DNA of 64,000 nucleotides from Lasiosphaeris hirsuta (Eukaryota > Ascomycota > Sordariomycetes > Sordariales > Lasiosphaeriaceae). How positions within the stretch are numbered: position 1 is the stretch's first letter; every line of letters begins with the position of its first letter. A program made the translations under genes and the position numbers. The stretch covers positions 1,736,001-1,800,000 of the forward strand of contig JAUKUA010000003.1 in NCBI GenBank assembly GCA_030549175.1, read 5' to 3'. This document shows positions 29,831 to 48,883 of this stretch, piece after piece. The notes beneath the pieces were generated by a model. That model made no database searches, was not told the origin of the DNA, and saw nothing but the letters and a program-made list of their open reading frames with translations.

Positions 29831-32800
29831 CTAGGGGAATGGCACGTCCATGGACATCCTCAAAATCACCACACGCCCTGTCGGACAGCCGATAGCAACT
29901 GCTGATCCGTCTTTGGAAATGTCTGATCTCGAAGGTCGGAAATCAGGTGGAAGCCATATGGAGCCCTGACCTCGCCATGTGACCCAGGAGCCATCGCCAC
30001 TAAGATCCCACCTTGGCCTCGTTCTGCTAGATAGTGCCCGCGCATTTGAAGTCATCTGGCCGTTGGATTTGATCATGTGAGAAGTGTCGCCAATAGTACT
30101 GTAGCTGTTAGAGCTACTGAGTGCGATCTCTTCAAGTTCGATACTACCAGCATTGGTTTGAAGCCACAGTCCAGAATCGCCTGAGGCTTCAAAACGAAGA
30201 CAATCAGGGCTTCTATTCACCGAGAGCACCCCCTCGAGCTTCTGCACCTCCTTGCCTGACCTTGCATCCCAGATCCGGATGGTCCTATCGTATGATCCAG
30301 AGGCGATTCGGCTGCCGTCCGGGGAGAATGCTACCGACGCGACCCCATAGCTATGGCCCTCGAGCTTCTGCACCTCCTTGCCTGACCTTGCATCCCAGAT
30401 CCGGATGGTCTCATCGTCTGATCCAGAGGCGATTCGGCTGCCGTCCGGGGAGAATGCTACCGACGCGACCTCTCTGCTATGGCCCTCGAGCTTCTGCACC
30501 TCCTTGCCTGACCTTGCATCCCAGATCCGGATGGTCCCATCGTATGATCCAGAGGCGATTCGGCTGCCGTCCGGGGAGAATGCTACCGACGCGACCTCTC
30601 TGCTATGGCCCTCGAGCTTCTGCACCTCCTTGCCTGACCTTGCATCCCAGATCCGGATGGTCCCATCGTATGATCCAGAGGCGATTCGGCTGCCGTCCGG
30701 GGAGAATGCTACCGATATGACCCCATAGCTATGGCCCTCGAGCTTCTGCACCTCCTTGCCTGACCTTGCATCCCAGATCCGGATGGTCTCATCGTATGAT
30801 CCAGAGGCGATTCGGCTGCCGTCCGGGGAGAATGCTACCGACGTGACCCTATTGCTATGGCCCTCGAGCTTCTGCACCTCCTTGCCTGACCTTGCATCCC
30901 AGATCCGGATGGTCCTATCGTCTGATCCAGAGGCGATTCGGCTGCCGTCCGGGGAGAATGCTACCGACCTGACCCAACCGCTATGGCCCTCGAGCTTCTG
31001 CACCTCCTTGCCTGACCTTGCATCCCAGATCCGGATGGTCTCATCGTATGATCCAGAGGCGATTCGGCTGCCGTCCGGGGAGAATGCTACCGACGTGACC
31101 CTATTGCTATGGCCCTCGAGCTTCTGCACCTCCTTGCCTGACCTTGCATCCCAGATCCGGATGGTCTTATCGTCTGATCCAGAGGCGATTCGGCTGCCGT
31201 CCGGGGAGAATGCTACCGACGCGACCCCATAGCTATGGCCCTCGAGCTTCTGCACCTCCTTGCCTGACCTTGCATCCCAGATCCGGATGGTCTCATCGTC
31301 TGATCCAGAGGCGATTCGGCTGCCGTCCGGGGAGAATGCTACCGACGTGACCCTATTGCTATGGCCCTCGAGCTTCTGCACCTCCTTGCCTGACCTTGCA
31401 TCCCAGATCCGGATGGTCTTATCGTCTGATCCAGAGGCGATTCGGCTGCCGTCCGGGGAGAATGCTACCGACGCGACCCCATAGCTATGGCCCTCGAGCT
31501 TCTGCACCTCCTTGCCTGACCTTGCATCCCAGATCCGGATGGTCTCATCGTCTGATCCAGAGGCGATTCGGCTGCCGTCCGGGGAGAATGCTACCGACGC
31601 GACCCCATAGCTATGGCCCTCGAGCTTCTGCACCTCCTTGCCTGACCTTGCATCCCAGATCCGGATGGTCTCATCGTCTGATCCAGAGGCGATTCGGCTG
31701 CCGTCCGGGGAGAATGCTACCGATATGACCCCTCCGCTATGGCTCTCAAATGTTTGAAGACATCGACTCCAGACTTGCTCAACCACCGGCTTTGTTAGCA
31801 CCCAGCCAGGCTCTTCTTTGGCAAACATTCGACGGATGATACTGCCAACCGGAGTAAAGAGCAATGCTGATATGTATGTCTGTAGTGGCGCCTGTTCGAT
31901 AAGCCGTCGATTTAGTAAAACAAACCGATATGCGTCTTCGATAAGATTCGTAAAAGCGTCCGTCCTTGCCTAATCTAGCGATTTAGTTATCTACTGTTTA
32001 ACGTAACAGGGGGGTTAGAACTTACTTCGATAATGGTTTTGAGCCTAGCAAGAGAGAGGACTCCATTCGAGATAGCGCCGAAGAGACTTAACGCTTCAAG
32101 CCAGTGAAGGAAGTGGTCGTGGAAAAACGACTCTATGGAGTTTCGTATTCGGATGTTCTTCTTTGATCCTACGATATGCCGTTTGAGAGCGTTTGCTAGC
32201 CGATAACTTCGGGAGCCTTGTAAATCGGCCTTATTCGTTTCACAAACATGGTCGACCCAATATGCACAGGAGTATCCTACTCCAAGTAAAGGGTCAAGCG
32301 TGGGTGGCCGCGCCTCTAGCTCACGGGTGAGCACTCCTGGATGCTCCAGCTGATATATATCTCGCCGGAGTGTATTCTCCATTGCCGTAATTGATCTGTC
32401 GACGATGCTGCGCTGAACAGTGTGTTTCCCGGACGGAAAAATCTTATCGACGGCGGTATCACTGACCAGGTAGTCCTTAGCCGATTGGTGAATCGGATAT
32501 ACGTAGTTATCCACCAGTGTAAGAAAGGAACCACACATGTCGATAATCTTCTCCAGGTCAGCGGTTTCGTACTTAAGCCCAGTTAACGTTCGGAGTTCGA
32601 GAATATGGAGTGGGCGGTACGCCAGGGTTGCGACTGAAAGCATAGCAAGGCACGAGTCTCGGTAGTTGTTTGTAGACTTGCTAATACCTCCCATCATCCG
32701 ATCGTAAAGCGGCGGTAGCCCTGGCGGTATCTCGTCGATACGGCGAACAGCATCTTCGGCCAAGAGACCACGGATAGATCGTAATACTAGATCAACCCAT

Positions 32801-34112
32801 AAAAAGGTACTCTCAGCCTTCTCAAGCAGCTTTTGTTGAATGACGGTTCGCTGGACAGGGCTGGATCGAAGTAATGAGACTTCAGCTACTTTGTAAATGA
32901 TGTAGGTTTTAATCGCCTGTGATACGGCTTCCGAGTTCACCTCTAGACTCAACTTCGCCCCGGGGCTCTCAAGAGCGAGGTTTTCGTCGATATCGACCTG
33001 GTAACGGCTCGTAACGATCCACTTGAGACGATTTTCTTGGAGGACGGTTTCCCGAACCAGGCTAAGGAGGTCCGGCAGACCGTCTTCGCATTCATCGAGA
33101 GCGTCAACAGCCAAGTACACGGTTTCCGACTGTGAGTGTTGGATCATGTGCCTGAACACATTAGACAGCGCGTCGAAGGCGTTGGCGTTGGCGCTGTCGT
33201 AGGCCTTCTTGTCCATCCGGTTGTAGTCACTCTTGAGGTACGAAACGAGACTGACATCTTGGACTAGCAAGAGGTAGATGAGCCCTTTAAGGACGGCGAC
33301 GGCATTGTTCAAGTTGCCATCGGAATTTTGGCAGAAGAAGAAGGACAAAGACGAGTTGGCGACGGGATGGTCAAGTCTGGTCTGAGGTCGAAGTTGCTTG
33401 ATGATGGTAACCATCAGCATTGTCTTGCCCTTCCCGGCACCGCCTTTGATCCAGAGCAACTTGGACTCGCCGGCTTTCCACTCTAGGTAGCTGGGGTGGG
33501 TGAGAATCCAGTTGGACGAGGCTTCGTATAGCCCTCCCTTGGTTCTTTCGATACGTGCCTTGTCGATGGTGGGATCGGTCCACTTTAGCTCCCGGAGGAG
33601 GAGGTCTCGTTCGGCTTCGGAGTCTGTCCAGTCTTAGAGATGTCTTCAATCAGTCCTTTAAGAGGGTGGGGGAGGGTACCGTTTGGCGGCGGTGGCGAGG
33701 TTGGTAGTTCCGTCGTGCAGTGGCTCAGCAGCTGAAGATCCTCTAATATGCTCTTCATGAGCGACTCCACCATATCTCCTTTACCCAAGGCGCGGGTAGC
33801 AAGTACGTATCGCTCCTTTCTCGAAGCATCGCCCTGTGGGATAACATCCTTGAATATCTCTTCGAGTTTTGTTATTCTGTACTTGCAGCACTGTAAGACA
33901 GGCATTTTGGCCTTGCACCATTCCTCATCGGGGTTGGCGTCGTCCTTCGAGATGGTCTGGAGGATTTGGCGGATAAGGGGAAGCCGGGCAGTAACATCGC
34001 GAAAGGCTTGTGGGAGGCCAGATGCATCGTTAGCGGCGTTGTAGATTTTCGCAATTGCGTCAATAATGGCGATGACGCCAGAGATGATGCCGATGACCTC
34101 GGCGCCCGACAT
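29831..34112 (-). CDS. SesA-NACHT-WD40 NOD-like receptor (HET-E/HNWD-like architecture)
   Basis: Fungal NLRs detect non-self signals through repeats and trigger incompatibility or defence through the N-terminal domain. Exons 34112-33680, 33632-32026 and 31969-29831 give about 1392 residues. The N-terminus (AEVIGIISGVIAIIDAIAKI, then ASGLPQAFRDVTARLPL) matches the SesA-type domain of fungal NLRs. A linker (ERTKGGLYEAS) precedes the NACHT domain with Walker A GGAGKGKTM and Walker B VYLAVDALDECEDG. An IHQSAKDYLVS winged-helix-like region follows. Twelve 42-residue WD40 repeats of pattern KLEGHSxxVxSVAFSPDGS, then RIASGSxDxTIRIWDARSG, end in a degenerate cap (WDLSGDGSWVTWRG, VAIGCPTGRVVIL). The SesA and NACHT frames differ by one base. 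A 47-nt intron (33679-33633, GTACCC, branch CTGAT, CTAAG) joins them; otherwise the gene is frameshifted. The second intron (32025-31970) is canonical. Confidence 0.88.
30231..31742 (-). repeat. Twelve tandem 126-bp WD40-coding units
   Basis: Units start every 126 bp (30231, 30357, and so on to 31617). By eye the constant part looks identical in all twelve. Differences fall in a few codons. These are the two residues after GHS (TyrGly, AsnArg, GlyTrp, ArgGlu, GlyGly), the residue after the next Val (Ala, Thr, Arg, Ile), the residue after SGS (Asp or Tyr), and the residue before TIRIWD (Glu, Lys, Arg, Gly). Confidence 0.97.
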
Positions 34113-36968: not shown

Positions 36969-37040
36969 TGACCCACACCCGATTTGAACGGATAACCTTT
37001 CGATCTGGAGTCGAACGCGCTACCGTTGCGCCAGCAGGCC
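36969..37040 (-). tRNA. tRNA-Trp (anticodon CCA)
   Basis: The minus strand folds as a 72-nt cloverleaf. The acceptor GGCCTGC pairs with GTGGGTC (several G-U pairs). The D-stem is GCGC/GCGC, the anticodon stem TTCGA/TCGAA with loop CTCCAGA (anticodon CCA at 37006-37008), and the T-arm ATCCG-TTCAAAT-CGGGT with discriminator A. It has no intron. A TTTT lies shortly downstream on the minus strand. Confidence 0.93.
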
Positions 37041-46721: not shown

Positions 46722-48277
46722 ATGGCCAGCGTGCAAGGCATGTCATTCACAGCGAGCGAGTTCTCGCTTGTTGAGGACAAAGGAGGCGACGCCCTGTTCT
46801 GGCAGGACCCGGTCGACGAGGCGGGATCGGCGGACTTCTTTGACGAGTTTGTCGTACTCGATGGGCCCGACACGGCCTCGACCCCGACGGCGGGAGGGGC
46901 TGAGGGGGAGAAGGGAGTCGAGGAGGCGACTACGCCAGCCTCGGCCTGCTGAAGACACTCACGCCACCAGTTTCGCTTGGATCGAGTACGAGCATGCTGC
47001 CGCCTGGGCGGCCTGCGGGCGTGGTAAGTGGGCACCAGAGACGGGTTTTGTATCTTGATCTGTCGAGGTGCTAACCCATCGGTTTCGCGCAACAGAAGCA
47101 ACCTCGCCGTGTGCACGGCGACCATGCCATGGCGATTCATCCTGGCGTCCTTAACCTGGGTGGTTTACCGACCTGCTACGACGTGCCCGGTGCGGGCTCC
47201 ATCTCGGACTCGGAGCTGCTGAAGCTTGAGGGATTGACGATGCGATCGCCGCGTGTTCAAATGCCGACTGTATCGGCGTCTGTCCCGCCGTCGCCTCCCT
47301 CGCGATCGGCGAGCCCACGCAAGCCTGGGCGGCTCGAGACTTTCTACACCAAGGTCCGCAACAAGGCTGCCACGCTGCAAGGAAGGTCCAAGCAGCAATC
47401 GTCACAAAACCCGCCAATGCCGAACATTTCGACGGCTCAGATGGGCACGGTGAAGGTAGCAAGCAGGCCGAAGCCGTATAACCTCAATATCATCAAGCCT
47501 CACCTGCCGCTATCCCCACCCCTCACGGGCTCCGTGTCAGACAGCTCACAGCCGTCAGCTACGGCAGACAGCAGCGCCACAAGCTTGTCTTTCGTGGCTG
47601 GCTTTGTAGAGGATCCCTTCCCCGAAGACGATGGCCTTAGCGTTGGTCAGCTCCACTCCGATGCTATCCCCAACACCCCACTGCACACGCCTCTCCTCAA
47701 TGGCTTCTCTTCCACCGTCGGCGGCCCTAATGGTGTAGCCGCCTGGCAGCTGACCAGCTCGAACGCCAGCACTCCCTTTCTCACGCTCGCCACCACCAAC
47801 GATGCCTTTTGGTGGGACCCTACCTGCGACCCGATGGACATGGACATGGAGATGGAAACAGCCCTGCAGCTTGCTCTCGCACAGCAGCAGCAACAGACCC
47901 GAGCCTTGGAGTACCCGCCACCGCCCACATCCAGCACCGACGACCTCTTCACCCCGTCGGGCCTCATGATCCACATGCCGCAGCCGCGCGGTCCAGCGCC
48001 CGCGGTCCTGCACTCTCCGGCCTCAGTACAGGTCACGTCCGCCACACTGGTCCAACCACACTACCACTACCCACCACCTCCTTCCCTCCACCTCCCCAAC
48101 GGCGGCAGCAGCGCCCGGCACGGCCGGCCCACCGAGACCTCCCCGCGCCGGCCCAAGCCGCGCGCCCCGTCCTCCGGCGCTCGTCACTACCAGTACGCAG
48201 TCTACCCGCACTACCCCGGCGGGGCCGCCTTCCTCGCGCAATCCTCGCCGCGCAAGCGCACTGCCTCCAACAACAGC

Positions 48278-48321
<44 letters not shown>

Positions 48322-48883
48322 CGGCCCGCCCCCCTCCCCGTCCCCAACCCCGCGGCTCCATCGCCGCAGCGCCTCGATGCAGCTCCTCCGCAACCCGCCG
48401 ACCGAGCCGCCCTCGGCGATCCGCAAGCGCAAGTCCTGGACAGGCCGACGGCCCTCGGACACAGCCTCCCCGCGCAAGCCGTCGCACGCGCGGCGCGCCT
48501 CGCAAGGGCCCCTCCCGTCATCATCCTCGTCATCCCGACCGCGCCAGTCGAAGTCGCGCCCGGCGAGCACCGCCTCGCCCCCGGACGATGACGACGACAG
48601 CCACCACCAGCTCGAGACACCAGCCGACGTCGGTGGGGACGGCTTCGTCAACTACACGCCATCGGACCACAACATCCTCATGACGGGGGTGGCGCCGTCG
48701 GGGAGCTCCAAGACCAAGGCGCGGCGGGAGCGCGAGGCACTCGAGCAGCAGCGCAAGCTGGGCGAGGCGGTGCGCAAGGCGGTGGTGGCGGCGGGCGGGG
48801 ATGTGAGCAAGCTGGAGCTGGAGGGCGAGAGCGACGTGCTGGGCATGCTGGCGGGCGCGGAGGGGTTGTTGGAGGGCAGGTAG
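46722..48883 (+). CDS. wetA: Conidiation regulator WetA (frame break in exon 1)
   Basis: WetA is a nuclear regulator that directs late conidium maturation downstream of BrlA and AbaA. Exon 1 (46722-47023) encodes MSFTASEFSLVEDKG, DALFWQDP and DFFDEFVVLD, the usual WetA start. Exon 2 (47096-48883) encodes SISDSELLKLEGLTMRSPR in the middle. Its C-terminal signature is VNYTPSDHNILMTGVAPSGS, then KTKARREREALEQQ and AVVAAGGDVSKLELEG. Exon 1 reaches TGA at 46949-46951 in the starting frame. The frame that splices correctly into exon 2 (GGCGTG before GTAAGT at 47024) is one base off, so one indel or an unseen intron lies between about 46880 and 46950, a G-rich stretch. An Asn-rich run from a CAA repeat lies at 48268-48322. 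Confidence 0.85.
48268..48322 (+). repeat. CAA trinucleotide repeat coding poly-Asn in wetA
   Basis: About 18 CAA/AAC units with one CAG interruption encode a Ser-interrupted Asn run of more than 15 residues. Slippage would change the length by whole codons. Confidence 0.95.

Follow-up and report, generated by a model that had tools for sequence, protein, structure and literature searches.

A SesA–NACHT–WD40 receptor gene of Lasiosphaeris hirsuta with twelve homogenised repeats varying at five codons

A stretch of 64,000 nucleotides (the window) from Lasiosphaeris hirsuta, a fungus of the order Sordariales, contains an intact receptor gene of three exons on the minus strand (34112..29831), which encodes a SesA–NACHT–WD40 protein of 1389 amino acids (aa) belonging to the NOD-like receptors (NLRs). 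The gene ends in an array of twelve near-identical WD40 units, in which variation is confined almost entirely to five codons; the same codons vary in other arrays of the genome and in homologues from other fungi. These features, taken together, are very probably explained by a single hypothesis: a SesA–NACHT–WD40 receptor whose array is homogenised within its own locus, whose five top-side residues per unit are diversifying, and which would kill the cell when triggered by non-self.

Variation in the WD40 array

Tandem Repeats Finder, run on the window, reported a repeat at 30231-31723 with a period of 126, 11.8 copies and 96% matches. In the codon register, the array consists of 12 full units of 126 bp (42 codons) at 31744..30233 of the minus strand, all in one open frame. 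An earlier note on this DNA had given 30231..31742, which identifies the repeat region correctly and is two bases off in register. The array contains 12 variable nucleotide columns, and 11 of them are located within codons 4, 5, 7, 23 and 25 (hypergeometric p = 8e-12). The restriction of change to five codons, as described in the earlier note, is thus borne out with one exception, a Ser for Gly in codon 1 of unit 1. The five codons were named from the window array itself, and independent tests of them come from the other arrays. At codon 25, all four previously described states were counted (GAG 6, AAG 2, AGG 2, GGG 2).

Alignment of the units with site-by-site comparison, the check proposed earlier, shows that change is concentrated in the five codons, where the difference per site was 0.409 for non-synonymous and 0.093 for synonymous changes; outside them the values were 0.002 and 0. 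The earlier statement that no synonymous change is visible therefore holds outside the five codons and fails at codon 4, where Gly is encoded once by GGA and once by GGT. Mean unit identity over the first 36 residues was 0.90 among the 12 units, and the repeats are more than 85% identical over at least 100 aa. Of 28 column pairs with two states each and the minor state in at least 2 units, 19 show all four combinations, among them the adjacent bases 73 and 74. This points to recurrent change combined with a reshuffling of the halves of units.

Arrays of this kind are not recovered from Illumina-based assemblies (PMC12222747), and an array expanded or collapsed by the assembler has to be considered. 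Such an artefact is very improbable here, because the genome is assembled in 14 contigs, 10 of the 12 units are distinct at the five codons and so were not simply copied, and the homologues have the same design. All results for L. hirsuta come from one genome.

The same codons in other arrays of the genome

A total of 21 loci (the window and 20 fetched loci, numbered with L) were compared, and 14 of them have at least five units; fewer were found in L010, L011, L015 and L018–L021. The pooled set consists of nine arrays that have at least 6 units and reach a mean identity of 0.93; L013, L017, L022, L023 and L028 were excluded, as was one L027 unit that reads into a stop. In the eight arrays besides that of the window, the five codons vary in the protein in 35 of 40 cases, compared with 28 of 272 for the other codons among codons 1–39 (p = 9e-24). 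The L. hirsuta genome contains at least nine homogenised arrays.

Nine other NACHT frames were scanned for N-terminal domains. HET was found in L011, L013, L014, L016, L017 and L022, and NACHT_N in L012; no N-terminal effector was found in the frames scanned of L024 and L025. Two HET-NACHT-WD40 (HNWD) genes, L014 (C9:2233500-2239500) and L016 (C1:7877500-7884000), carry 11 and 12 homogenised units. Genes of the HNWD type are present in L. hirsuta, in contrast to a 2007 paper that reported no HNWD sequences from outside Podospora anserina (PMC1805685).

SesA–NACHT–WD40 homologues in other fungi

In the homologue search, 854 proteins matched among 7,992 scored, and the best 120 of the 854 were used (database proteins are numbered with P). 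Among the matches listed, the relatives P0002 and P0004-P0025 are 59–76% identical to the receptor over 71-100% of its residues 1–720, and their sources include Lasiosphaeria, Chaetomium, Podospora, Monosporascus and Truncatella. PF17107, the SesA family, appears in the domain lists of at least ten relatives. The number of units found by pattern ranges from 0-2, in short or partial records, up to 12, and the framework residues are specific to each gene.

The array test covered 21 of P0002–P0025, without the paralogue P0003 and without P0006 and P0016 (0 and 2 units). Nine homologue arrays passed, with at least 3 units and 0.80 identity; P0014 and P0021 belong to one species, as do P0007 and P0008. 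The five codons vary in 42 of 45 cases in these arrays, compared with 51 of 279 for the other codons. In Lasiosphaeria hispida P0007, which has 11 units, the entire protein variation is confined to the five codons. Among the nine, the lowest unit number is 3, in P0009 and P0023 of Podospora comata, and the highest is 12, in P0014 of Truncatella angustata.

The two T. angustata records, P0014 and P0021, are 99.86% identical over 695 residues of SesA–NACHT and have identical tails; they contain 12 and 7 units, with exactly five absent in register. This is the pattern expected of repeat-number polymorphism, at which it hints. In the shorter record, 65 residues ahead of the array are missing as well, which may be a difference in the gene model, and the record is located on a 128-kb contig where collapse of the array is possible.

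Homogenisation within loci

Locus L009 is the closest paralogue of the window gene, and its spliced product is identical to the L. hirsuta database protein P0003. Over the first 117 bases, units are on average 95.4% identical within the window array and 95.7% within L009, but 85.4% identical between the two; even the least similar pair within the window array (91.5%) exceeds the most similar pair between the arrays (88.9%). Among 115 units from 14 loci, a nearest neighbour in another array was observed only for the L010 unit, the single one found at its locus. To judge from these identities, homogenisation proceeds within each locus, in agreement with the concerted evolution of units proposed in the earlier note. 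Recent whole-unit exchange between paralogous loci was seen neither among these units nor between the window and L009; the result applies to the loci fetched, and older or partial exchange may have occurred.

The framework residues of the window array are closer to those of L. hispida P0007 and P0008 (distance 0.032 and 0.031) than to those of L009 (0.067). In a SesA–NACHT tree of 21 hand-picked rows, L009 groups with Dichotomopilus and Rhypophila (99/99), and the window gene is located, without a resolved position, inside the ten-row clade of L009 (100/99). This placement suggests that the window gene and L009 are old duplicates. A third, broken copy of the gene was observed at L010 (C8:6188000-6194000); it is 78% identical over most of NACHT, contains two internal stops, and only a single WD40 unit was found in it.

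Structure models

In a model of units 1-7 (predicted local distance difference test, pLDDT, 96.8), four of the five variable sites are loop residues, and the fifth, codon 7, begins strand a. Codons 5, 7 and 23 correspond to published top-face hotspots of WD40 proteins. The propeller modelling and site mapping that the earlier note had proposed are in line with its claim that a predicted binding face is diversified, and the same codons vary in other arrays. For a model of all 12 units with the tail, the first-ranked structural match was 2ymu, with a root-mean-square deviation of 23.2 over 581 columns; a comparison of residues 1–677 with solved structures by sequence gave no match at E 0.01. The sequences and the model, with the caveats weighed below, support diversifying selection on a few predicted-exposed positions, a feature of fungal NLRs with high internal conservation.

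The diverged arrays with 11 or 12 full units form a recurrent group (L009, L014, L016, L024, L025, the window and P0007), and the others here have 6 to 10. The recurrent number is close to that of reactive HET-D/HET-E alleles and may reflect a double seven-blade propeller.

Selection, mutation hotspot or RIP

The Val codon 6 and the Asp codon 24 lie between variable codons and do not vary in any of 54 columns over the nine pooled arrays, compared with 67 of 135 columns in the five codons. This invariance favours selection over a local hotspot. Within these five, 58 of 90 columns are variable at positions 1–2, compared with 9 of 45 at position 3 (p = 1e-6). The variable codons form two tight groups, and changes recur even at the adjacent bases 73-74, as might be expected if the variation came from a local mutation hotspot, or from surface loops under relaxed constraint, and not from diversifying selection; that alternative is nonetheless improbable in view of the two contrasts just given. 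Comparison of the window array with L009 gave 14 non-synonymous and 1 synonymous states within the window array, with fixed differences of 4 and 6 (p = 0.007), and pooling of the two arrays gave a weaker contrast, 22 : 6 against 4 : 6 (p = 0.045).

Several points weigh against the explanation by diversifying selection on a ligand-binding face. Third positions vary more in the five codons (9/45) than in the framework (16/288, p = 0.003), as a hotspot would predict; two of the nine variable third positions have a purely synonymous pair and the rest involve an amino-acid change, and a locally higher mutation rate may have contributed to this excess. The rate at codons 6 and 24 taken together is not significantly below that of the framework (0/54 vs 49/864, p = 0.11). 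Units and columns are non-independent, so that all p-values overstate significance. Codon 7 is inside strand a by DSSP, and the model of 12 units with the tail is of moderate quality (pLDDT 67.9; predicted template modelling score, pTM, 0.51), with the tail not resolved. The relative in Podospora comata has only 3 units.

The earlier note had described the states of codon 25 as those expected from C-to-T mutation of the kind caused by repeat-induced point mutation (RIP), and the differences at this codon are indeed G/A only. The second base of that codon, however, is outside a CpA/TpG context; per unit, only 2 of 16 CpA/TpG sites vary, and none of the 5 that are synonymous. A transversion is required in five columns, with 10 transitions to 5 transversions over the first 117 bases. 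Composition is mildly RIP-like in the NACHT part (TA/AT ratio 0.97, substrate index 0.89), unlike in the array itself (0.38 and 1.85, GC 0.60). Divergence from L009 over NACHT and the upstream stretch is rich in transitions (368 : 129), and C/T differences before A (0.251) and G/A differences after T (0.259) exceed those in other contexts (0.144-0.236). RIP instead of selection as the source of the array variation was rejected on site context, transversions and composition, and has very little probability left. Outside the repeats, composition and divergence make a mild RIP-like signal of old date possible. The mild RIP-like dinucleotide composition was observed in the window at 31990-33633 and in the NACHT part of L009, and not in the window's repeat array.

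Gene structure and neighbouring features

The spliced receptor is identical over its full length to database protein P0001, a hypothetical protein of L. hirsuta. All its exons and introns are on the minus strand. Exon 1 (33680..34112) contains the start codon and the SesA (HeLo-like) effector domain (PF17107, E 5.4e-36; Pfam match about 33726-34085). Intron 1 (33624..33679, 56 bp, GT..AG) restores the frame between SesA and NACHT, and a homologous intron of 49 bp is found in L009. A pseudogene or frameshift between the two domains, suspected from the open frames, was rejected because of this intron and the identity of the spliced protein with P0001. Exon 2 (32026..33623) encodes the NACHT NTPase (PF24883, E 6.8e-26; PF05729, E 7.9e-09), with the P-loop GGAGKGKT at about 33421-33444. 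It is followed by intron 2 (31970..32025, 56 bp, GTAAGT..TAG), to which an intron of 55 bp in L009 is homologous. Exon 3 (29831..31969) is an open frame that comprises the linker, the twelve units (30233..31744), a divergent C-terminal tail (29831..30232) and the stop. Other arrays of the same genome are also followed by tails with the conserved residues W..WLPP..R..G; the tail is possibly composed of cryptic propeller blades, as described for HET-E.

The Pfam matches to SesA, NACHT and WD40 support the earlier identification of the gene as an NLR. No HET domain was found by Pfam in the receptor frames scanned, and membership of the receptor in the HNWD family was rejected on its N-terminal SesA domain. 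A tRNA-Trp (cca) gene is located upstream of the receptor gene at 36969-37040 of the window, minus strand, and a (CAA)18 trinucleotide run at 48268-48322, inside a GC-rich stretch with a long open frame.

Possible function and significance

In the proposed mechanism, the WD40 array would fold into one or more beta-propellers, and unequal exchange or gene conversion inside the locus would keep the units near-identical. On the loop (top) side of each blade, the predicted ligand-binding surface, five residues would be altered repeatedly by diversifying selection. By analogy with HET-E and HET-D, a non-self cue, either a foreign molecule or a self protein of another allele met through hyphal fusion, may bind the propeller and trigger oligomerisation of NACHT. 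Oligomerisation would in turn release the SesA/HeLo-like domain, with membrane damage and killing of the cell. Ligand binding, oligomerisation, cell death and a role in allo- or xenorecognition are thus predictions from this analogy.

It is a substantial possibility, though somewhat short of even, that the cue sensed comes from other organisms (xenorecognition) or is a guarded self protein, with any role in vegetative incompatibility as a by-product. Such dynamism was considered to fit pathogen receptors better than vegetative incompatibility alone (PMC2873952), and the presence of at least nine homogenised arrays in one genome points in the same direction; the characterised Podospora relatives, on the other hand, are incompatibility genes.

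A broader proposal is that SesA–NACHT–WD40 genes form, in filamentous ascomycetes, a HET-independent arm of hypervariable recognition, with loci homogenising alone and sharing no units, the same five codons re-diversified across lineages and a repertoire of at least nine arrays; we put it forward tentatively, as rather doubtful in its full form. If true, L. hirsuta would run at least nine arrays as a renewable receptor repertoire, in which the window gene and its closest paralogue are coupled to a membrane-damaging effector and not to HET. The receptor itself extends a design of fungal non-self receptor that is functionally detailed in Podospora to a different effector domain. Re-diversification of the same positions in many arrays offers a natural test, and the intact paralogue, together with homologues of other unit numbers, a practical system for studying how repeat shuffling makes new specificities.

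Comparison with known receptor systems

The receptor is an individual case of a known design. Concerted evolution with few selected codons has been described as general in fungal NLRs (PMC4986451), and those with high internal repeat conservation have repeats more than 85% identical over more than 100 aa, as here, a degree of identity for which fungal NLRs are enriched. SesA/HeLo-like N-termini are a known class among them, and no defining difference was found here from the description in that source; the L. hirsuta receptor, with a SesA effector, NACHT and near-identical repeats, belongs to this group. In Sordariales, HeLo-like/sesA NLRs rank with the commonest types, and HeLo-like domains, with which sesA was merged, are listed as pore-forming (PMC12258605). 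The main text of that paper gave no hit for Lasiosphaeris, for hirsuta or for internal conservation. No earlier paper on the receptor gene itself was found in the literature on L. hirsuta and on sesA with WD repeats and internal conservation, supplements not being covered.

Highly-Repetitive WD40 proteins also have near-identical blades with diversity at predicted interaction hotspots (PMC5587647). Their solved example is 2ymu, and NACHT and SesA are outside their definition.

The closest comparison is with the HNWD receptors of P. anserina (HET-E, HET-D and HET-R), for which concerted evolution and selection at a few surface codons are established (PMC1805685, PMC2873952, PMC12222747). Like the L. 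hirsuta receptor, they combine NACHT with homogenised 42-aa WD40 units and have a divergent C-terminal tail. The selected HNWD codons 7, 9, 25 and 27 (PMC1805685) correspond to codons 5, 7, 23 and 25 of L. hirsuta, an equivalence of positions that the earlier note had anticipated, and the conserved HNWD codons 8 and 26 to V6 and D24. Reactive HNWD alleles usually have 11 units and some have 10 or 12, compared with 12 in the L. hirsuta receptor. A double seven-blade propeller has been proposed for HET-E, with which the low-scoring model of 12 units and tail is too poor to be compared. The L. hirsuta receptor differs from the HNWD proteins in its effector, which is SesA instead of HET, and in codon 4, which is as variable in its array as the other four. 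Exchange between loci was moreover reported in Podospora, whereas no recent exchange of whole units was seen between the L. hirsuta loci examined.
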